From contig NZ_JANTHX010000007.1 of the NCBI RefSeq assembly GCF_024752305.1, positions 67,627 to 131,626 of the forward strand: 64,000 bases of DNA, given 5' to 3'. The stretch comes from Protaetiibacter mangrovi (GTDB lineage Bacteria > Actinomycetota > Actinomycetes > Actinomycetales > Microbacteriaceae). Position numbers and translations under genes: made by a program. Under the pieces are notes generated by a model. That model was not told where the DNA came from, made no database searches, and worked only from the letters and a program-made list of their open reading frames with translations. Shown piece after piece: positions 20,062-54,866 of this stretch (the first letter of the stretch is position 1; each line of letters starts with the position of its first letter).

Positions 20062-20155
20062 ACCGTTGATGTGGGGGCGAGTCAGGGCGATATTCGGGTT
20101 GTCGCCCTGACTCGAATCTTGCGAGGGGCCGGACGCTCTGTCCGGCCCCTCGTCC
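20062..20155 (+). ncRNA. Candidate small RNA with two tandem perfect hairpins
   Basis: About 90 bases. Hairpin 1 pairs 20078-20090 with 20102-20114 (13 perfect base pairs, 11-base loop); hairpin 2 pairs 20122-20134 with 20140-20152 (13 perfect pairs, 5-base loop). Seven bases separate them. A promoter-like TTACAC-TAGGGT lies just upstream. Hairpin 2 could also end the convergent membrane-protein transcript, but hairpin 1 would not be needed for that. I do not recognise a known RNA family; transcription is not shown. Confidence 0.4.
20122..20152. terminator. Strong GC hairpin, probable bidirectional terminator
   Basis: A perfect 13-base-pair stem with a GCTCT loop, 40 bases past the stop of the convergent gene at 20192. 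There is no run of T after it on the plus strand (TCCCATG), as is common for actinobacterial terminators. Confidence 0.6.
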
Positions 20156-25216: not shown

Positions 25217-26974
25217 ATGCCTCGCATCTCGAAGGTCCTGATCGCGAATCGGGGTGAGATCGCGGTGCGCGTGATCCGCGCCGCCCGCGACGCCGGCATC
25301 TCATCCGTCGCCGTGTACGCCGACCAGGACCGCGGTGCGCGGCACGTGGTCCTCGCCGACGAGGCGTACGCCCTCGACGGGTCGACGAGCGCCGAGACCT
25401 ACCTCGTCATCGACAAGCTGCTCTCCATCGCCCGGCGCTCCGGCGCCGACGCCGTGCATCCCGGTTACGGCTTCCTCGCCGAGAACGCCGACTTCGCGCG
25501 CGCCGTCATCGACGCCGGCCTCATCTGGATCGGCCCCTCGCCGGATGCCATCGAGCGCCTCGGCGACAAGGTGTCGGCTCGCCACGTGGCCGAGAAGGTC
25601 GGCGCACCGCTCGCCCCCGGCACCCTCAACCCCGTGGCGGACGCCGACGAGGTGCTCGCCTTCGTCGACGAGGTCGGCCTGCCGGTCGCCATCAAGGCGG
25701 CCTTCGGCGGCGGCGGGCGCGGCCTCAAGGTCGCCCGCACCCGCGAGGAGGTGCCCGAGCTCTTCGAGTCGGCCACCCGCGAGGCCGTCGCGGCGTTCGG
25801 CCGCGGCGAGTGCTTCGTCGAGAAGTACCTCGACAAGCCGCGCCACGTCGAGACCCAGTGCCTCGCGGATGCCGCCGGCAACGTCGTCGTCGTGTCGACG
25901 CGCGACTGCTCGCTGCAGCGCCGCCACCAGAAGCTCGTCGAGGAGGCACCCGCGCCCTTCCTGACCGACGCCCAGAAGGAGCTGCTCTACAGCTCGTCGA
26001 AGGCGATCCTGAAGGAGGTCGGCTACGTCGGCGCCGGCACCTGCGAGTTCCTCATCGGTCTCGACGGCACCGTCTCCTTCCTCGAGGTCAACACGCGCCT
26101 CCAGGTCGAGCACCCCGTGTCCGAGGAGGTCACCGGCATCGACCTCGTCCGCGAGCAGTTCCGCATCGCCGAGGGCGGCACGCTCGACTACCCGGACCCC
26201 GAGACCAAGGGCCACTCGTTCGAGTTCCGCATCAACGGCGAGGACCCGGGGCGCAACTTCCTTCCGACCCCGGGCCCGATCCAGGCCATCCGCTACCCCG
26301 GCGGCCCCGGCGTGCGCATCGACTCCGGCGTCACCACGGGCGACGTCGTCTCGGGCGCGTTCGACTCGATGCTCGCGAAGCTCATCGTCACCGGCTCCTC
26401 GCGCGAGGACGCGCTCGAGCGCGCACGCCGCGCCCTCGACGAGTTCGAGGTCGCGGGCCTGCCCACCGTCATCCCGTTCCACCGCGCCATCGTGCGCGAG
26501 CCCGCCTTCACCGCCGAGGACGGCGCGTTCGGCGTCTACACGCGCTGGATCGAGACGGAGTTCGCGGGCGAGCTCGAGCCGTGGGGCGGCGTCCTCGCCG
26601 ACCCGGCGCCCGCCGAGAAGCGCCACTCGGTCGTGGTCGAGGTCGAAGGCAAGCGGGTCGCGGTGTCGCTGCCGACGACGCTGCTGCCCTCGGCCACCGT
26701 CTCCGCCCCGCCTCCCCCGCGTCGCCGCGGCGGCGCCGGCGCGGTGGCCACGGCCACCGGCGACGCGGTCAAGGCGCCCATGCAGGCCACGATCGTGAAG
26801 CTCGCGGTCGCCGAGGGCGACAAGGTCGTCAAGGGCGACCTCGTGGTCGTGCTCGAGGCGATGAAGATGGAGCAGCCGCTCACCGCCCACAAGGACGGCA
26901 CGATCGGCTCGATCGACGCGACGGTCGGCGCCACCGTCTCGTCGGGCCACCTGCTGCTGACGATCGCCGACTGA
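25217..26974 (+). CDS. accA: Acyl-CoA carboxylase alpha subunit (biotin carboxylase plus BCCP)
   Basis: 585 residues. The biotin carboxylase part (1-450) starts [20 protein letters not shown], holds the ATP-grasp loop [12 protein letters not shown] and the active-site [15 protein letters not shown]. After a proline-rich hinge (about 485-500, PPPPRRRGG), a biotin carboxyl carrier domain ends the protein with EAMKM at 547-551; K550 is the lysine biotinylated by BirA. This makes it the alpha partner of AccD/AccE encoded at 18 kb, comparable to AccA3. A family-A palindrome begins 17 bases past its stop. Confidence 0.97.
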
Positions 26975-26990
26975 CCCCTCTCCCCCCTCC

Positions 26991-27062
26991 CGCGAGCGCT
27001 ACCCGTTTCGGCGAGCGCTACCGGTCTATCGGTAGCCGTCGCCGGTTTCGGTAGCGCTCGCG
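26991..27062. repeat. Family A palindrome, copy 1
   Basis: Outer arms 26991-27003 and 27050-27062 pair perfectly (13 base pairs), then a five-base mismatch block, then six further pairs, with an inner CTACCG/CGGTAG hairpin at 27018-27035. Bases 26991-27044 are identical to 28039-28092 in the same orientation, so the copies are 54-base direct repeats 1,048 bases apart that flank the gene at 27064-27987. It ends one base before that gene's stop codon and may end both convergent transcripts. Confidence 0.85.
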
Positions 27063-27063
27063 G

Positions 27064-27987
27064 TCAGCGGATGCCGTGCTGGCTCAGGAGTCGACCGAGG
27101 CGCGCGGGCGACGCCGCGGTCGCGGCATCCCAGCGCGCGACCGAACGGACGCCCCGCTGGCGGCGCAGGCGCTGCTCACGCCACTTCTCGTCGAGCAGCA
27201 CCTGTTCGAGGGTTCGGCCGTCGCGGTAGCGCTCGTCGAGGTACTTCACCTTGCCGTCGAACTCGCCGACCGCACCGAACCGCGGCCACCAGAAATCCAC
27301 CATCATCAGGCCGTCACGGTCGTGGAACTCGTGCTGCAATTCGGGTGCGGGAAGCCCCGCCTCCGCGATCGAGACGCGACTCAGGGACTCGAGCGGCGAG
27401 CCGCTGCGTGCGTCCGCGAACGCGACCACCTCCCGCGCGCGACGTGCACCCCGGTAGCCGGGCTCCGGGAGCCCGTCGACGAGTGCCTCGCGGGGGATAC
27501 CGCGGGCGAGCACAGCATCCGCGACCATCACCCCCTCCGCGAAGCGCGACGTGCGCGCGACGTCGACCGCCGTGCGCGCGAGCGTGGTCACCTCCAGCCC
27601 GTCGAGGACGACGGTGTCGCGCGGGATGTCCAGGCAATGGCGCACCAGCCTGTCGTCGGAGCGACCACCACCCGCCCGCAGGGCGATCACATGGACGTCG
27701 TCCGGAGGGTCGCCGAGGAGCGGAAGCCCCCAGGCGGTGGCGGCGGTCCGGTGCGACAGCACGAGGCGCCGCTCGCGCATGAGGACGACCGCGCGCGCGA
27801 GCGTCAGATGCCGCTCCCGGACCGACATCGGCTCCCACCGGGCGGCCGGGATGTAGACCCCGCGCACCAGCCGCAGCAGCTCGCCCGTCCTCACCCTCGC
27901 CGCGATGCGATCCGCTTCGCTCTCGGGAGCCTCTCGCGCCAGCACGAACTCCTCCCGCCACGGCGAGGTGATGACGGTCTCGTCCAT
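27064..27987 (-). CDS. AbiEi-like/DUF559 (Vsr-like nuclease) protein, family A associated
   Basis: 307 residues. An N-terminal half like the AbiEi antitoxin domain has RLVRGVYIPA (39-48), LSHRTAATAWGLPL (77-90) and TTLARTAVDVA. The C-terminal third looks like a PD-(D/E)xK fold of the DUF559/Vsr group: after DARSGSPLES and GLPAPELQHE come D231 (VDFWWP), E242, D244 and K246 (GEFDGKVKY). I infer a nuclease-like or DNA-binding protein; no activity is shown and no AbiEii toxin gene is adjacent. It is bracketed by the two copies of palindrome family A. The paralogue at 37236 shares every landmark and has its own, different palindromes. Confidence 0.7.
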   Translation of the reverse strand: MDETVITSPWREEFVLAREAPESEADRIAARVRTGELLRLVRGVYIPAARWEPMSVRERHLTLARAVVLMRERRLVLSHRTAATAWGLPLLGDPPDDVHVIALRAGGGRSDDRLVRHCLDIPRDTVVLDGLEVTTLARTAVDVARTSRFAEGVMVADAVLARGIPREALVDGLPEPGYRGARRAREVVAFADARSGSPLESLSRVSIAEAGLPAPELQHEFHDRDGLMMVDFWWPRFGAVGEFDGKVKYLDERYRDGRTLEQVLLDEKWREQRLRRQRGVRSVARWDAATAASPARLGRLLSQHGIR

Positions 27988-28036
27988 CCCGCAACCCTGC
28001 CGAATCCGACCGCGGCGCCCCGTCGTCTCTCCACAG

Positions 28037-28112
28037 CTCGCGAGCGCTACCCGTTTCGGCGAGCGCTACCGGTCTATCGGTAGCCGTCGCCGAAACGGGT
28101 AGCGCTCGCGAG
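28037..28112. repeat. Family A palindrome, copy 2
   Basis: A perfect 26-base inverted repeat (28037-28062 with 28087-28112) around a 24-base centre that itself contains CTACCG/CGGTAG. It lies between the lpdA-like gene's stop (28148) and the start of the DUF559 gene (27987). Bases 28039-28092 equal 26991-27044. The 3' arm here is a perfect match to the 5' arm, whereas copy 1 has a five-base block that differs. Confidence 0.9.
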
Positions 28113-28147
28113 GGTCAGGGGCGGGTGCAGGCACTCGGAGGGGACGG

Positions 28148-29584
28148 CTACGAGACGATGTGCATCGCCCGGGCCGCGTCCGTGACGGCGCCCGACAGGG
28201 AGGGGTAGACCGAGAACGCGCGCGCCAGCTGGTCGACCGTGAGCCGGTGCTCGACCGCGAGCGCGATCGGCAGGATGAGATCGGACGCCTTCGGGGCGAC
28301 GACGACCCCGCCGATGACGGTGCCGGACCCGGTGCGGGCGAACAGCTTCACGAAGCCGTCCTTGATGCCCTCCATCTTCGCCCGCGGGTTCGACGCGAGC
28401 GACAGCTTGTAGATCTCGCCCTGGGCGATGCCGTCCTCGATCTGCTTCTGCGACCACCCGACCGTCGCCACCTCGGGGTGCGTGAAGATGTTGCTCGTCA
28501 CGTTGCGCAGCTCGGTCGGCGTGACCGCGTCGCCCATGGCGTGGTAGACGGCCGTGCGCCCCTGCATCGACGCGACCGAGGCGAGCGGGAGGAAGTCACT
28601 GCAGTCGCCGGCCGCGTAGACCATCGGCATCGAGGTGCGCGCGACGCGGTTGACGCGGATGTGGCCGGACTCGGTCAGCTGCACCCCGGCCTCCTCGAGG
28701 CCGAGGCCCGCCGTGTTGGGCACGGATCCGACGGCGAGCAGGCAGTGCGACCCCTCCACCGTGCGCCCGTCGGAGAGGGTGACCACGACACCGTCGCCTC
28801 TGCGCTCGACCGACTGCATGCGCGACTTGGAGAGCACGGTCATGCCCCCGCGCACGAAGACGTTCTCGATGACGCGCGCCGCATCCGCGTCCTCGCCGGG
28901 GAGCACCTGCTCGCGGCTGGACACGAGCGTGACCTGGGCGCCGAGGGCGCGATACGCCGACGCGAACTCCGCACCGGTGACGCCGGAGCCGACGACGATC
29001 AGGTGCTCGGGCACCTCGTCGAGGTTGTAGAGCTGGGTCCAGGTGAGGATGCGTCGCCCGTCGGGCTTCGCGCTCGGCAGCACGCGCGGGCTCGCGCCGA
29101 CCGCCACGACGACCGTGTCGGCGACGAACTCGTCGAAGTCGACGCGCTTCTTGCCCTTGCCGGTCGAGACGACGAGACGGTCCGGTCCGTCGAGGCGGCC
29201 GTCGCCCGCGACGATGCGCACGCCCGCCTTGATGAGCTGGGACTTCATGTCCTCCGACTGCTGGCGCGCGAGCAGCAGCAGTCGCTGGTTGACGGCCGCG
29301 AGGTTCACCGTCACCTCGGGACGCACCGCGCGCCCCGCATCCGTGCGCGAGAAGAACTGCACGCCCAGATCGGCCGCCTGCCCGACATCCGTCGCCGCAC
29401 CCGCGGTCGCGATGAGCGACTTCGACGGCACCACATCGGTGAGCACCGCCGAGCCGCCGACGCCGGCGCGCTCGACGAGCGTCACCTCGGCGCCGAGCTG
29501 GGCGCCGGTGAGCGCCGCCTCGTAGCCGCCGGGGCCGCCCCCGAGTACCGCGATGCGCTGGGTCCGCTCGAACTCGTAGGGCAT
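28148..29584 (-). CDS. lpdA: NAD(P)H-quinone/FAD pyridine nucleotide oxidoreductase (LpdA-like)
   Basis: 478 residues with the dihydrolipoamide dehydrogenase fold: FAD motif VLGGGPGGYEAAL near residue 12, NAD motif VVGSGVTGAEFASAY, second FAD motif VYAAGDCSD, and a C-terminal interface domain. The place of the redox disulphide reads GGSAVLTDVVPSKSL with no cysteine, so it cannot act as lipoamide dehydrogenase. This fits M. tuberculosis LpdA (Rv3303c), a quinone-reducing flavoprotein found at the equivalent map position. ATG 29584 starts MPYEF; an upstream in-frame ATG would add six residues. Confidence 0.87.
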   Translation of the reverse strand: MPYEFERTQRIAVLGGGPGGYEAALTGAQLGAEVTLVERAGVGGSAVLTDVVPSKSLIATAGAATDVGQAADLGVQFFSRTDAGRAVRPEVTVNLAAVNQRLLLLARQQSEDMKSQLIKAGVRIVAGDGRLDGPDRLVVSTGKGKKRVDFDEFVADTVVVAVGASPRVLPSAKPDGRRILTWTQLYNLDEVPEHLIVVGSGVTGAEFASAYRALGAQVTLVSSREQVLPGEDADAARVIENVFVRGGMTVLSKSRMQSVERRGDGVVVTLSDGRTVEGSHCLLAVGSVPNTAGLGLEEAGVQLTESGHIRVNRVARTSMPMVYAAGDCSDFLPLASVASMQGRTAVYHAMGDAVTPTELRNVTSNIFTHPEVATVGWSQKQIEDGIAQGEIYKLSLASNPRAKMEGIKDGFVKLFARTGSGTVIGGVVVAPKASDLILPIALAVEHRLTVDQLARAFSVYPSLSGAVTDAARAMHIVS

Positions 29585-36115: not shown

Positions 36116-37063
36116 ATGCCCCGCCGCATCATCCTGGACTGCGACCCCGGACACGACGACGCCATCGCGCTGCTGCTCGCCCACGGCAACCCCGAGATCG
36201 AGCTCGCGGCGGTCACGACCGTCGCCGGCAACGCCGGCATCGAGAACGTCACCCGCAACGCGCTGTCGGTCGCGCGCATCGCCGGCATCGCCGGGGTGCC
36301 GTTCGCGCGAGGCGCCGCCCGCCCGCTCGTGCGCAGCGTCGAATTCGCCCCCGACATCCACGGCGACTCCGGCCTCGACGGCCCGGCACTGCCCGAGCCG
36401 CTCTTCGACGTCGACCCCCGCGGCGCGGTGCAGCTCATCATCGACACCGTCATGGCATCCGAGCCGGGCGAGATCACGCTCGTCCCCACCGGCGCGCTCA
36501 CCAACATCGCGCTCGCCGCGCGCATCGAGCCGCGCATCGTGTCGCGGGTGCGCGAAGTGGTGCTCATGGGCGGCGGCGTGCATGTGGGCAACTGGAACGC
36601 CACGAGCGAGTTCAACATCGTGATCGACCCCGAGGCTGCGCACATCGTCTTCAACGAGTCATGGCCGCTCACCATGGTCGGCCTCGACGTGACCCACCAG
36701 GCGCTCGCCACCCCGCAGGTGCGCGAGCGGATCGCCGCCGTGGGCACCCGGCCCGCCGCCTTCGTCGGCGAGCTGCTCGACTTCTTCGGCGCCACCTACC
36801 TCGAGGCGCAGGGCTTCACCTCGCCCCCCGTCCACGACCCGGTCGCGGTGGCGTACGTGATCGACCCGTCAGTGCTGCAGGTCGTGAAGGCGCCCCTCGA
36901 CGTCGAACTCGCGGGCACGCTGACGCTCGGCATGACCGTCGCCGATCTGCGTCGCCCGGCACCCGCCGACTGCACGACTCAGGTCTCGCTCGGCCTCGAC
37001 GAGCGCCGCTTCTGGGACCTCGTCGTCGACGCGCTGGAGCGCATCGGCGACCCCGACGCCTGA
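36116..37063 (+). CDS. Nucleoside hydrolase (inosine-uridine type)
   Basis: 315 residues. It hydrolyses ribonucleosides to base and ribose. The N-terminal DCDPGHDDAIAL is the calcium-binding DxDxxxDD signature (IILDCDPGHDDA), the VPTGALTNIALA and LMGGGVHVGNWNATSEFN segments are typical, and the substrate-facing VHDPVAVAY is present. IunH/RihA-C members differ in base preference that cannot be read here. It is divergent from the SAHH-like gene with a shared IclR-type operator, so it probably belongs to the same regulon. A family-B palindrome starts 17 bases after its stop. Confidence 0.92.
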   Translation: MPRRIILDCDPGHDDAIALLLAHGNPEIELAAVTTVAGNAGIENVTRNALSVARIAGIAGVPFARGAARPLVRSVEFAPDIHGDSGLDGPALPEPLFDVDPRGAVQLIIDTVMASEPGEITLVPTGALTNIALAARIEPRIVSRVREVVLMGGGVHVGNWNATSEFNIVIDPEAAHIVFNESWPLTMVGLDVTHQALATPQVRERIAAVGTRPAAFVGELLDFFGATYLEAQGFTSPPVHDPVAVAYVIDPSVLQVVKAPLDVELAGTLTLGMTVADLRRPAPADCTTQVSLGLDERRFWDLVVDALERIGDPDA

Positions 37064-37079
37064 CGCGCGGACTCATCCC

Positions 37080-37135
37080 GAGGCGTCACTTTGCGTCGCT
37101 TCTGGCGCTGTCTAGGCGACTCAAACCGACGCCTC
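37080..37135. repeat. Family B palindrome, copy 1
   Basis: Arms 37080-37100 and 37115-37135 match at 17 of 21 positions, starting GAGGCGTC and ending with GACGCCTC. It sits between the nucleoside hydrolase stop and the second DUF559 gene. Mismatches fall at the same inner positions as in the other copies. Confidence 0.8.
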
Positions 37136-37235
37136 ACCACTCACCGGTCCTGCCCATCACGCTGGAGCACCGTCGCTCCCCCGTTTCGGGCTCCATGTTC
37201 TTCCGGGTATCGGTGGCACCACCAAGGTCGTCGCC

Positions 37236-38144
37236 ATGCCGACACCGCCCGCTCCACTACCGCCCGACCTCGCGGCACCGGCGTTCGCCGTGCGCGACGC
37301 CCGTCGCATGGGGATCGATCGCAACAGGATGCGGCGTGGCGACCTGACCAGCCCGTTCCGCGGTGTACGCGAGACCGTCCCGTCGTCAGGCATCCGGGAT
37401 CGATGTGCCGCCTACCAGACGATCATGCGGCCAGATGCGTACTTCTGCGGACCCACGGCTGCTCTCCTCTGGGGTCTGCCGCTCCCGCGTCGCCTGGAAC
37501 TCGGCGAACCGCTGCACGTCGGACTCCCCCACGGGCAACGCGCGACCCGGCTCGCCGGAACCGCGGGACACCACTTCGTGATCACGGCCTCCGAGCTGAC
37601 CATGCTCGACGGCATGCCGATCACGACGCCCGCCCGCACCTGGTGCGACCTCGCACCGTATCTGAGTCTCGAGGACCTCGTCGCGGCGGGCGATCGGGTG
37701 ATCTGGCGGCGCGCCCCGCTCGCGTCCCTCGCTGACGTCCGAGAGATGGCCCGGGTGCATCCCGGGCGTCGTGGCGCACTCACGCGTGCGACCGCCCTGC
37801 CGAAGCTGAACGACCGATCGGATGCGAGGTCGGAGACCCAGCTGCGGCTGCGGTTCGCCGACGCCGGCTTGCCGCCGATGGTGGCGAACCACGAGGTGTG
37901 GAAGGACGGTCGGCTGATCGCCGAGATCGACCTCGCCAGCATCCGCTACCGCGTGGGCATCGACCACGAGGGAGACCACCACCGCACCGATCAGGCGCAG
38001 TGGCGGCGAGATCTGCGTCGCTTCGTCGAGCTCGAAGATGACAGCTGGTCGATGATCCGCTCCACTGCCGACGATCTGCGCGACACGAGTCGCCTCATCG
38101 AGACCGTCGAAGCCCGTTTGCGTCGCCGCGGCTGGACAGGCTGA
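37236..38144 (+). CDS. AbiEi-like/DUF559 (Vsr-like nuclease) protein, family B associated
   Basis: 302 residues, a paralogue of the protein at 27064-27987. Matching landmarks: FRGVRETVP (41-49), CGPTAALLWGLPL (71-83), TTPARTWCDLA (130-140), SDARSETQL (195-203) and GLPPMVANHE (211-220). The C-terminal nuclease-like core is AEIDLASIRYRVGIDHEGDHHR, with D232, D243, E245, H248 and H249, close to Vsr/DUF559 proteins. Function is unknown; no partner toxin gene is adjacent. Family-B palindromes lie on both sides, the downstream one overlapping its own TGA stop. The two paralogues are far apart in sequence, so this is not a recent duplication. Confidence 0.7.
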   Translation: MPTPPAPLPPDLAAPAFAVRDARRMGIDRNRMRRGDLTSPFRGVRETVPSSGIRDRCAAYQTIMRPDAYFCGPTAALLWGLPLPRRLELGEPLHVGLPHGQRATRLAGTAGHHFVITASELTMLDGMPITTPARTWCDLAPYLSLEDLVAAGDRVIWRRAPLASLADVREMARVHPGRRGALTRATALPKLNDRSDARSETQLRLRFADAGLPPMVANHEVWKDGRLIAEIDLASIRYRVGIDHEGDHHRTDQAQWRRDLRRFVELEDDSWSMIRSTADDLRDTSRLIETVEARLRRRGWTG

Positions 38145-38199
38145 GGCGTCGCTTTGTGTCGCCCCACCCCAGTCCACGACGACACGAAGTGACGCCTCA
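38142..38199. repeat. Family B palindrome, copy 2 (overlaps a stop codon)
   Basis: Arms 38142-38163 and 38178-38199 match at 19 of 22 positions. The left arm begins with the TGA stop of the DUF559 gene (TGAGGCGTC). It would form a stem immediately at the end of translation. Confidence 0.85.
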
Positions 38200-38234
38200 A
38201 GTCGAGCCTCGAGGGAAGCAGGATCAGTGACGGG

Positions 38235-38294
38235 TCGAGGCGTCGGTTTGCGTCGCCAAGATCGCACCTGAGGCGACCCAAAGTGACGCCTCGA
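38235..38294. repeat. Family B palindrome, copy 3
   Basis: Arms 38235-38257 and 38272-38294 match at 20 of 23 positions. It lies 36 bases after copy 2 and 13 bases before the deoA stop. The deoA stop region itself reads TGAGGCGTGAC on the minus strand, a fragment of the same arm. Confidence 0.85.
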
Positions 38295-38306
38295 AGAAGT
38301 CACGCC

Positions 38307-39596
38307 TCAGGCGAGGCGGGTGCGGATGAGGGGGCGCTCGGGCAGGGGGGTGCCGACGGGCGCGATCGTGTAGGCGCCCTCGAGCGACTCGAGCGCGCGG
38401 GGGAAGCGCGCCGGGTCGTCGGCGTGGAGCGTGAAAAGCGGATCGCCCGCACGCACCGCGTCGCCGGGTTTCGCGTGCAGGTCGATGCCGGCGGCGTGCA
38501 CCACGGGGTCCTCCTTACGGGCGCGCCCGGCGCCCAGACGCCATGCGGCGACGCCGAACGGGAGCGCCTCCTGGGTCGCCAGCACACCGTCGGACTCCGC
38601 ACGCACCGTGTGCGACTCGCGCGGGGTGGGCAGAGGCGCATCCGGATCGCCGCCCTGAGCGGAGATCATGGCGCGCCAGGTGTCCATCGCGCGACCGTCG
38701 GCGAGGGCCGCCTCGACGTCGGCATCCGGCAGGCCCGCCAGCTCGAGCATCTCGCGGGCGAGCGCGACCGTCAGCTCCACGACGTCCGCCGGACCACCCC
38801 CGGCGAGCACCTCCACCGACTCGCGCACCTCGTTGGCGTTGCCGATCGCGAGCCCGAGGGGCACGTTCATGTCGGTCAGCAGCGCACGCGTCGCGACGCC
38901 CGCCTCGTTGCCGAGCCGCACCATGGTGGCCGCGAGCTCGTGCGCGCGGTCGTAGTCCTTCATGAACGCGCCCGAGCCGAACTTCACGTCGAGCACGAGG
39001 GATGCGGTGCCCTCCGCGATCTTCTTCGACATGATCGACGACGCGATCAGCGGGATGGCCTCGACGGTGCCGGTGATGTCGCGCAGCGCGTAGAGCTTGC
39101 CGTCCGCCGGGGCGAGGTCGGCTCCCGCGGCGCAGACGACGGCGCCGACCGCGCCGAGCTGTGCGAGGAACTCCTCGTTGCTGAGGCGAGCGCGCCATCC
39201 GGGGATCGATTCGAGCTTGTCGAGGGTGCCCCCGGTGTGGCCGAGCCCGCGGCCCGACAGCTGCGGCACCGCGACACCGAACGAGGCGACGAGCGGGGCG
39301 AGGGGCAGCGTGATCTTGTCGCCGACGCCGCCCGTCGAGTGCTTGTCGGTCGTGGTGCGGCCGAGCCCCGAGAAGTCGAGCCGCTCCCCGCTCGCGACCA
39401 TCGCGAGGGTCAGCTCCCGGATCTCGTCGCCGGTCATGCCGTTGAGGAACACGGCCATCGCGAACGCGGACATCTGCTCGTCGGCCACGTAGCCGCGGGT
39501 GTACGCGTCGACGAGCCAGGCGATCTCGGCGGCCGACAGCTCGCCGCGGTCGCGCTTGCGGTGGATGAGGTCGACGGTGTCGAACGGTTCGACCAT
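38307..39596 (-). CDS. deoA: Thymidine phosphorylase
   Basis: 429 residues, pyrimidine-nucleoside phosphorylase family. It converts thymidine or deoxyuridine and phosphate to base and deoxyribose-1-phosphate. The signature SGRGLGHTGGTLDKLESIPG is complete, DKHSTGGVGDK binds phosphate, and a C-terminal domain with the KPGDAVRAGDPLFTLHA hammerhead fold is present. The ATG shares a base with the cdd stop, coupling it to cytidine deaminase, which makes its uridine-type substrates. Matches Rv3314c. Confidence 0.96.
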   Translation of the reverse strand: MVEPFDTVDLIHRKRDRGELSAAEIAWLVDAYTRGYVADEQMSAFAMAVFLNGMTGDEIRELTLAMVASGERLDFSGLGRTTTDKHSTGGVGDKITLPLAPLVASFGVAVPQLSGRGLGHTGGTLDKLESIPGWRARLSNEEFLAQLGAVGAVVCAAGADLAPADGKLYALRDITGTVEAIPLIASSIMSKKIAEGTASLVLDVKFGSGAFMKDYDRAHELAATMVRLGNEAGVATRALLTDMNVPLGLAIGNANEVRESVEVLAGGGPADVVELTVALAREMLELAGLPDADVEAALADGRAMDTWRAMISAQGGDPDAPLPTPRESHTVRAESDGVLATQEALPFGVAAWRLGAGRARKEDPVVHAAGIDLHAKPGDAVRAGDPLFTLHADDPARFPRALESLEGAYTIAPVGTPLPERPLIRTRLA

Positions 39597-53324: not shown

Positions 53325-53884
53325 TGGAACCCGTCGTGCTGCGCACCGAGCGGTTGGTGCTCTCACCCGCGCGGCTCGACGACGTCGACCACGCGACCGC
53401 ACTGCTGCAGGAGCCCGTGATGGCGACCATGCTCGCCTCGCTCCCCTGGCCGTACACCCGCGCGGATTCCGTCCACTACATCGGCACGATGGTGCCGGCG
53501 GGGTGGGCGTCGGGTGACGCGCTCAGCTGGGCGATCCGCGAGAGCGCCGACGGGCCGCCGCTGGGCGACATCTCCTGGCGTCCCCCGCGGGGCGACGTCG
53601 GCTACTGGCTCGGGGCGCCGTACCGCGGCCGCGGCTACATGACCGAGGCGCTGCGGGCCGTCGTCGACTGGGTCTTCGCGCGCACCCCCGAGCTCGACCG
53701 CGTCGGCTGGGAGGCGGTGGTGGGCAACGTCGCGTCGGCACGGGTCGCCCGCGCCGCCGGCTTCCGCTACGACGGCGAACGGCCGGTCGAGATCGACTTC
53801 CGCGACGGCACCCGCCCGATGGGCTGGCACGGATACCGCCTGCGCGACGACGACGGCGGGGTGCACGCGGGGTGGCCGCTGTGA
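53324..53884 (+). CDS. GNAT family N-acetyltransferase, RimJ-like
   Basis: 186 residues. VLRTERLVLSPARLDDVD is the typical RimJ/RimL-type start, VGYWLGAPYRGRGYMTEALR contains the acetyl-CoA pyrophosphate-binding R-G-R-G-Y-M loop, and SARVARAAGFRYDG is the C-terminal Asn/Ser-X7-GF landmark. Substrate unknown; ribosomal protein or small amine acetylation are both possible. It is coupled to trpS by overlapping codons and to the HAD gene by GTGA. Confidence 0.88.
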
Positions 53885-54600
53885 GCATCCGCGCCGTGCT
53901 GTTCGACCTCGACGACACCCTGTTCGCCCATCGCGAGTCGGTCGAGGCCGGCATCCACGCGCACCGCGCGGAGCTCGGCGGGGCGCTGGCCGAGGCGGAG
54001 CCGGCCGCGGAGTTCGCCCGGTGGAACGCCCTCGAGGAGGAGCACTACCACCGCTATCTCGCGGGTGAACTCGACTACCTGGGTCAGCGCCGCGCCCGCG
54101 CCCGCGCCTTCGTCGCGCCGTACGGGATCGAGCTCGACGACGAGGCCGCGGAGGCCTGGTTCGAGTCGTACCGGGTGCACTACGAGACCGGCTGGCGCCT
54201 GCACGACGACGCGGTGCCGTGCCTCGACACGCTCGGCCCGCGTCGGCTGGGCATCATCACCAACGGCGATCTCGCGTTCCAGACCTCGAAGGTGCAGGGC
54301 GTCGGGCTCGCGCGGCACATCCCGCTGGATGCGCTGGTGGCGAGCGGCGAGGTGGGCGTCGCGAAGCCCGACGCCCGCATCTTCGCCCTCGCCGCGGAGC
54401 GGCTCGGCGTGACGCCGCCGGAGGCCTGCTACGTGGGCGACCGCCTGCACACGGATGCCATCGGTGCGGCGCGTGCCGGCCTGCTGGGCGTGTGGATCGA
54501 TCGCCGCGGCACTGCGACCGTGGAGCAGCTCGCGGAGGCCGCCGCGGAGGGCGTTCCCGTCATCCGCTCGCTCACCCAGCTGCCGTCGATCCTCGTCTGA
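53881..54600 (+). CDS. HAD family hydrolase
   Basis: 239 residues. The nucleophile motif FDLDDTLFAH (Asp 8 and 10), a cap domain up to about residue 95, motif II ITNGD, motif III GVAKPD and motif IV GDRLHTDAIGA are intact, so it is an active phosphatase. The cap resembles YjjG/pyrimidine nucleotidase-like enzymes. Substrate is not known. GTG 53881 overlaps the GNAT stop. The TGA stop is the first base triplet of a family-B palindrome. Confidence 0.9.
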   Translation: MSIRAVLFDLDDTLFAHRESVEAGIHAHRAELGGALAEAEPAAEFARWNALEEEHYHRYLAGELDYLGQRRARARAFVAPYGIELDDEAAEAWFESYRVHYETGWRLHDDAVPCLDTLGPRRLGIITNGDLAFQTSKVQGVGLARHIPLDALVASGEVGVAKPDARIFALAAERLGVTPPEACYVGDRLHTDAIGAARAGLLGVWIDRRGTATVEQLAEAAAEGVPVIRSLTQLPSILV

Positions 54601-54656
54601 GGCGTCGCTTCGTGTCGCGTCGCGCCTCCGGCAGGCGACACCAACTGACGCCTCGA
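54598..54656. repeat. Family B palindrome, copy 4 (overlaps a stop codon)
   Basis: Arms 54598-54619 and 54634-54655 match at 17 of 22 positions and begin with the TGA stop of the HAD gene, as in copy 2. It stands alone, 16 kb from the other copies and without a nearby DUF559 gene, so the family is dispersed. Confidence 0.8.
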
Positions 54657-54735: not shown

Positions 54736-54866
54736 CACGTGCTCCGGGGGCGGTGGAATTCCGCACCGGCGGTGATAGTCCGCGAACCCCGTTCCGCGAG
54801 GAACGGGGCCGATCCGGTGGAATTCCGGGACCGACGGTCAGAGTCCGGATGAGAGGAAGCACGCGT
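54736..54866 (+). promoter_or_regulatory. FMN riboswitch (RFN element)
   Basis: The aptamer core is recognised by GCTCCGGGGGCGGTGGAATT followed by CCGCACCGGCGGTGATAGTC, then the GATCCGGTGGAATTCC and GACCGACGGTCAGAGTCCGG arms, and the closing GATGAGAGGAAGCACG. P1 pairs CGTGCT (54738-54743) with AGCACG (54858-54863). It controls the ribD-ribE-ribAB-ribH operon. The expression platform is the 78 bases to ribD and contains a GTCGGCG/CGCCGAC stem (54865-54893); no T-rich terminator is visible, so FMN probably acts on translation or through another termination route. Confidence 0.95.

Follow-up and report, generated by a model that had tools for sequence, protein, structure and literature searches.

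A candidate REPIN-RAYT-like system in Actinomycetes: dispersed palindromes paired with an AbiEi-like and Vsr/EDxHD-type nuclease gene

In the parts of PMC3116915 and PMC8049555 drawn on here, bacterial repeat populations that persist for a long time beside a single-copy nuclease gene are tied to RAYTs, and REPINs are described as conserved arms flanking a diverse spacer. The locus analyzed in the present work, located in a stretch of 64,000 nucleotides of the Protaetiibacter mangrovi genome (the whole of which is referred to below as the window), is similar to the REPIN-RAYT systems of these sources in several respects: a single-copy chromosomal nuclease gene is flanked by its own palindromes, each gene having its own type; the repeats are dispersed intergenic inverted doublets with a variable centre; and copies are more numerous in gene-bearing genomes, while some gene-less genomes keep them (PMC3116915, PMC8049555). 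It differs in its enzyme, which is an AbiEi-like protein fused to a Vsr/EDxHD nuclease, whereas RAYT is a Y1 HUH transposase, as well as in the absence of the GTAG foot, in the number of arms (tens per genome, whereas REPs can reach many hundreds), and in its host, which belongs to Actinomycetes. The Y1 HUH tyrosine transposase corresponds to the Pfam family Y1_Tnp. Another similar group is that of the CGTC-tagged REPs, which are also dispersed extragenic palindromes and were reported without a dedicated transposase, the question of which enzyme, if any, moves them being left open in the consulted parts of PMC3733652; they have stems of 8–9 bp and an unpaired tag, whereas the elements described here are long and two-armed. 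From the AbiEi antitoxin of the type IV toxin–antitoxin system AbiE the protein studied here differs in its C-terminal nuclease and in palindromes that stand on both sides of the gene and are dispersed. The AbiE system is a two-gene operon with the AbiEii nucleotidyltransferase toxin. To our knowledge, no enzyme of the AbiEi–EDxHD fold mobilizes such repeats by itself, and a gene–palindrome pairing of this kind was not described in the titles and abstract beginnings of open-access literature among the matches listed.

The P0001 gene (302 aa ORF; Table 1) is located between a gene on the + strand (36116–37063) and a − strand gene that ends at position 38307, which we take to be thymidine phosphorylase (deoA). 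AbiEi-type N-terminal and middle domains, as in AbiE proteins, were present in P0001, and structure alignment of the predicted fold revealed the catalytic-domain fold of the EDxHD/Vsr group together with its E, D, H, and D residues. In a second-look structure alignment, the nuclease domain aligned best with the homing endonuclease I-Bth0305I, NGO0050, and Vsr; the fold assignment rests on this alignment, since Foldseek gave no match for P0001 at E ≤ 0.001, and the sole matches of the PDB-sequence profile search were 3r3p (E 0.35) and 3hrl (E 0.42). Residues E200, D232, H248, H249, and D259 showed no variation among the 59 aligned sequences, the E, D, H, and D residues presumably being the catalytic residues of EDxHD/Vsr enzymes. 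A predicted fold was thereby obtained for both halves of the protein, along with invariant residues of the catalytic type. The Y1 HUH tyrosine transposase was absent among the six Pfam families matched (E up to 0.1) by 27 members of the family, and no HUH-fold row was noticed in the second-look structure alignment of P0001. In contrast to EDxHD/Vsr homing endonuclease genes such as that of I-Bth0305I, the P0001 gene is free-standing between other genes, carries the AbiEi-like fusion, is tied to dispersed palindromes, and was found in 0 of 50,697 phage records. The gene is chromosomal; phage or plasmid cargo was rejected, as matches were limited to 5 of 72,556 plasmid records and to none of the phage records.

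Table 1. Coordinates of the nuclease genes and their palindromes in the window
Feature	Position	Strand	Remarks
AbiEi-like + Vsr/EDxHD-type endonuclease fusion gene (P0001)	37236..38144	+	AbiEi-like part, residues ~3–192; Vsr/EDxHD-type part, residues ~195–300
Upstream family-B palindrome, 56 bp	37080..37135	.	found at the P0001 gene
First downstream family-B palindrome, 56 bp	38143..38198	.	initial GA shared with the stop codon (TGA) of P0001
Second downstream family-B palindrome, 56 bp	38237..38292	.	inverted repeat with the upstream copy
P0002 gene (307 aa), a distant paralogue accompanied by palindromes of a separate family, A	27064..27987	−	related by anatomy
Family-A palindrome, one flank of P0002	26990..27063	.	
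Family-A palindrome, other flank of P0002	28037..28112	.	
Dispersed family-B element	54599..54654	.	overlaps the stop codon of gene 53881–54600

An earlier note on this DNA had reported one palindrome upstream of the P0001 gene and two downstream of it, and three units of family B were indeed located at these places. The first downstream copy starts within the stop codon (TGA-GGCGTC), while the two outer copies are mutual inverted copies (57 nt, 86%) enclosing the gene; the arms of the units have the form GAGGCGTC-RSTTTGY-GTCGC. When folded as single-stranded DNA, each of the three gene-flanking units was matched by 0 of 200 shuffled sequences, and the copy at 54.6 kb by 2 of 200. Elements of families B, C, and E start with GAGGCGTC, GAGGGG, and TCCGCGA/TCCCCGA, respectively, or with close variants, and none of these three families showed a GTAG tag at the repeat foot. 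Palindromes functioning as terminators were rejected, as no terminator-like site was found across positions 36900–38500, and so was their identity with a known RNA, the sole Rfam match in the window at the gathering score being an FMN riboswitch (RF00050, 91.5 bits, 54737–54864, + strand), located a short distance downstream of the 54.6-kb dispersed element of family B. It should also be noted that a hairpin unlike these palindrome families, CGAGTCAGGGCGA-N11-TCGCCCTGACTCG (window positions 20078–20114), was unchanged in 6 of the 6 genomes compared.

Dispersal of the palindromes throughout the genome is the key to the nature of this arrangement and lay outside the view of the earlier note. In the 2.98-Mb genome, the B arm pattern GAGGCGTCRSTTTGYGTCGC, with up to 3 mismatches allowed, had 35 matches, versus 1 for the reversed control pattern. 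Among the 30 loci listed, 14 paired B elements were identified (13 of 56 bp and 1 of 55 bp), all of them between predicted genes; three are at the P0001 gene and 11 elsewhere, while ~0.006 would be expected at the gene (P ~3 × 10−8). Placement was evaluated for 59 elements (14 B, 22 E, and 23 C, including five gene-flanking ones; the elements of genomes G006 and G001 were samples of 20 regions each) using our own gene caller. The unit lengths were near-fixed at 56, 68, and 55 bp, and 58 of the 59 elements were intergenic: 33 were found in codirectional, 19 in convergent, and 6 in divergent gaps, the remaining one being called intragenic, and the background gaps being 304 codirectional, 52 convergent, and 50 divergent. 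Gene 3′ ends next to elements were within 3 bp in 32 of 71 cases and within 20 bp in 52, while for 5′ ends the corresponding values were 2 and 9 of 45. Part of this 3′-end placement may come from selection in a compact genome.

The mismatches in the arms had previously been noticed to fall at the same inner positions, which was borne out (the varying B positions are mainly 9–15), and had been attributed to a defined stem with kept bulges, which was rejected: an element's own arms paired no better than arms swapped between elements. Pairing within versus between elements was 0.78 versus 0.763 for B, 0.868 versus 0.870 for C, and 0.795 versus 0.807 for E, and when arms were permuted within each family, with one 55-bp B element and two 67-bp E elements excluded, the observed pairing was reached in 324, 1186, and 1712 of 2000 permutations, respectively, so that no covariation of the arms was revealed in B, C, or E. 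Since pairing within elements equals that between elements, the arms appear to be conserved as sequence and not as a stem. In families B and E the arms are conserved and the centres variable, and in family C the centre is conserved as well. The arms thus kept look like two inverted half-sites for a protein dimer.

The paralogue at 27 kb (P0002) has a different palindrome (family A), as the earlier note had stated. The accompanying claim that the two proteins share all landmarks held in part: BLAST confirmed remote homology (217 aligned positions, 30% of them identical, E = 4 × 10−11), but the alignment ends at residue 231, shortly after the nuclease domain has begun, and visual inspection shows EFDGK in P0002 at the place of HEGDHH in P0001. 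Counts of family A arms at 3 mismatches were generally not above the control; matches with zero or one mismatch were found in G005 and in P. mangrovi (G000) among the matches listed, suggesting that family A is dispersed in both genomes. In total, at least five members of the nuclease gene family are present in the P. mangrovi genome. The fifth (L262, G000:C16:128700-132700) lies between imperfect inverted repeats of 88 nt, whose ends are palindromic.

A homologue of the gene was found in 64 of the 99 genomes searched, P. mangrovi included. The analysis covered 112 homologue loci, of which 80 came from named genomes (the best 80 of 376 loci in that scan) and 32 from the other genomes. After L057 (located at a contig edge and read in the wrong frame) and L064, L070, L082, L094, and L109 (same protein segment) were left out, 106 loci were retained, 103 of them with full flanks; pairs with 93–98% identity were kept among the 103, and these loci are therefore not fully independent. 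A strict hairpin was detected on at least one side of the gene in 59 of the 103 loci and on both sides in 22, in 21 of which the two hairpins matched each other, versus ~2% on a given side and 0 on both sides among 360 pairs of control windows. The similarity of the left and right flanks exceeded the 99th percentile of 432 control windows (4 controls above) in 65 of the 103 loci, with 38 failing this test; in the 65 passing loci, the left and right repeats aligned better in inverted (31) or direct (20) orientation or were undecided (14). Among 20 further loci, 19 were family members, and 10 of these passed the flank mark (L262 in P. mangrovi and nine in other class groups). Of the 45 loci scanned for arms of their own type in the outer flanks, only 5 had them. 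The gene–palindrome pairing, suspected in the earlier note, is supported by the hairpin and flank-similarity results and by the concentration of B elements at P0001, and we regard it as solid. In locus L113 (4591–4901), the sequence just downstream of the gene was amplified in tandem in steps of ~73 bp relative to L124.

The check proposed in the same note, i.e., whether palindrome type follows the clade of the protein, was performed on the 69 of the 106 loci with a hairpin, loci free of hairpins not entering it. Arm scores of at least 12 were obtained for 8 of the 12 pairs with protein identity of at least 75% and for 9 of the 11 pairs with 60–75% identity (17 of 23 above 60%), while in the lower identity bins such scores were found in 10%, 8%, 2%, 1%, and ~0% of pairs (~1 to 2% at 35–45%). 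Palindrome similarity was correlated with protein similarity (Spearman 0.11; Mantel 1 of 999). This supports the view that palindrome type tracks protein clade, the type usually being the same in proteins more than 60% identical and rarely so in less similar ones.

Arm numbers were compared in nine genomes of the genus, with both strands searched and up to 3 mismatches allowed. The genomes with a B gene had 35 (G000), 46 (G004), and 55 (G007) B arms, with the gene at 100, 65, and 57% identity, respectively, and the other six had 28 (G008), 16 (G002), 14 (G005), 10 (G006), 5 (G003), and 4 (G001). C arms numbered 14 in G000 and 45 in G001, where they flank the genes L002 and L047, respectively, versus 0–3 in the seven others. 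The genomes with E genes (L039–L041) had 67 (G006), 47 (G002), and 35 (G003) E arms, while 29 were found in G005, 22 in G001, 10 in G004, 5 in G000, 2 in G008, and 0 in G007; G001 has a relative of P0001 (38%) whose palindrome resembles E. Exact rank tests gave 1/84 for B, 1/36 for C, and 1/84 for E, values that refer to nine genomes only and ignore common descent. Two arm patterns from other genera were compared in one chosen set of 12 genomes: the first was found 33 times in G056 versus 0–1 times elsewhere in the set, and the second 15 times in G053 versus 0 in each of the remaining 11. However, a high copy number does not strictly require a gene present today, because G008 keeps 28 B arms with no B-like gene found (its three matches are 38%, 35%, and a partial 41%) and G005 keeps 29 E arms with no E-type gene in the deoA slot; we assume these arms to be relics.

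Comparison of orthologous slots showed that their occupancy is genome-specific. The deoA slot carries B-type genes in G000, G004, and G007, E-type genes in G002, G003, and G006, and another type in G001, and in G008 it is reduced to ~5 bp between aligned blocks, with neither gene nor palindrome. In the genomes with a gene in this slot, the neighbour is 78–90% identical to that of G000 and the nuclease 38–65%, which apparently represents fast change or replacement of the nuclease at a fixed place. In G005 (L152), repeats of the CCCAACTCAAGGAC type occupy the position where the nuclease gene stands elsewhere. The slot at 26978–28154 contains gene A in G000 and an A-type gene in G005 and G008; in G002, where an E gene is present, it contains an E palindrome, and in G007, where a B gene is present, a B palindrome of that genome's own kind. 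In G003 (L158, slot orthologous to window positions 26974–28154), an unrelated insert of 2.5 kb is found there, which by eye reads like glycosyltransferase genes. The slot at 54.6 kb is occupied by a B element in G000 and by another palindrome family in G002, and in G003 the aligned blocks are only ~10 bp apart; in L156 (G008) and L172 (G005) it is apparently filled, judging by eye, by a gene with tandem coiled-coil-like repeats. A further palindrome family, approximately TGAGTGGTCGSTTTCTGGCC, was noticed in L164 (G002) and L156 (G008). Some elements must be old, as one B site is common to G000, G004, and G008; its copy in G004 shows that genome's own GAGGTGTC variant, which suggests concerted change. 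No clean insertion boundary or target-site duplication was readable in the syntenic regions or in close named pairs, because the relatives are ~75–88% identical in the compared regions; in Cryobacterium, the element of L068 is missing at the matching place in L066, the region being too diverged for the join to be read. On the whole, the distribution of elements among the slots supports mobility of the palindromes.

The gene has its own repeat type on its flanks, the repeat is dispersed and extragenic, and each genome has one gene per type, as in REPIN-RAYT systems. The arrangement is not a RAYT by enzyme or tag, yet it appears to work like a RAYT system, and on balance we consider it rather probable that gene and palindromes belong to a single system of the REPIN-RAYT kind whose nuclease is unrelated to RAYT. 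The 38 of 103 loci that failed the flank test, the many palindromes kept by G008 and G005, the age of some elements, and the family A counts weigh against this reading. Recognition, cleavage, and mobilization of the palindromes we infer for nucleases of the P0001 type as follows. The nuclease gene remains single-copy for its type, often keeping its place in related genomes; a dimer of its product would recognize the palindrome of ~56 bp, with one arm of ~20–25 nt per AbiEi-like half, and the Vsr/EDxHD domains would cut or nick the DNA there. Excision of the hairpin with re-insertion, or repair of the break by copying, may then duplicate solo palindromes in trans, and the new ones would settle intergenically, often a few bases from stop codons. 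Divergence of the protein would carry divergence of the palindrome, and for this reason each genome would hold the palindromes of its resident nuclease along with relics of lost ones. According to the consulted parts of the sources, AbiEi of Streptococcus agalactiae binds inverted repeats extending up to 23 bp with N3 between them (PMC3985639), and I-Bth0305I dimerizes on nearly 60 bp (PMC3943268); both geometries fit a palindrome of 55–68 bp read by a dimer of the fusion protein.

The same AbiEi is described in the consulted part of PMC3985639 as binding the inverted repeats in its own promoter and repressing it, which would agree with an autoregulatory operator and a small regulon, the AbiEi-like half binding palindromes at its own and neighbouring genes and the nuclease serving, e.g., defence; the upstream palindrome of G002, G006, and G001 also stops a few bases short of the start codon. 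Against such an operator, the palindromes are present downstream too, where they overlap stop codons, the dispersed copies adjoin 3′ and not 5′ ends of genes, only 6 of the 59 elements are between divergent genes, and the orthologous slots are differently occupied in relatives, unlike a regulon, and we find this explanation unlikely, albeit with a real chance of being correct. Only a small chance is given to a homing-endonuclease gene, whose palindromic target would be spread by another agent and which would home into solo palindromes by break repair, leaving a palindrome–gene–palindrome array. The best alignments of the nuclease domain, the copies of the putative target bounding the gene, and the empty slot in G008 agree with homing, but that slot lacks a palindrome, only one gene of this type is present although the genome has 11 other palindromes, all of them without it, and a further agent would be needed to make the palindromes track the clade of each gene.

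The elements prefer 3′ gene ends and fold well, as would ordinary dispersed hairpins (terminators or mRNA stabilizers) that the gene adjoins by chance; such an origin is, however, already contradicted by the hairpin, flank-similarity, and clade tests and seems highly improbable to us. The three copies at the gene have no terminator-like site, the arms do not covary, two-sided hairpins accompany homologues in many genera versus 0 of the 360 controls, and palindrome type tracks protein clade.

As for the REPIN-RAYT-like system preferred here, we tentatively suggest, with slightly less than even confidence, that it represents a second, independently evolved form of REP mobilization, in which an AbiEi–EDxHD nuclease, single-copy for its type, moves in trans a palindrome that co-evolves with its DNA-binding surface, and that this form extends across much of Actinomycetes, with several orthogonal pairs per genome. 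If this is true, the copying of repeats by their own nuclease, which has until now been attributed to enzymes of an unrelated family, would mean that the REPIN-RAYT lifestyle has evolved more than once, with a non-homologous enzyme. Repeat families listed without a transposase would then obtain a candidate enzyme class, the many natural protein–site pairs would make a DNA recognition code readable, and genes now annotated as DUF559 or AbiEi-like would acquire a meaning.
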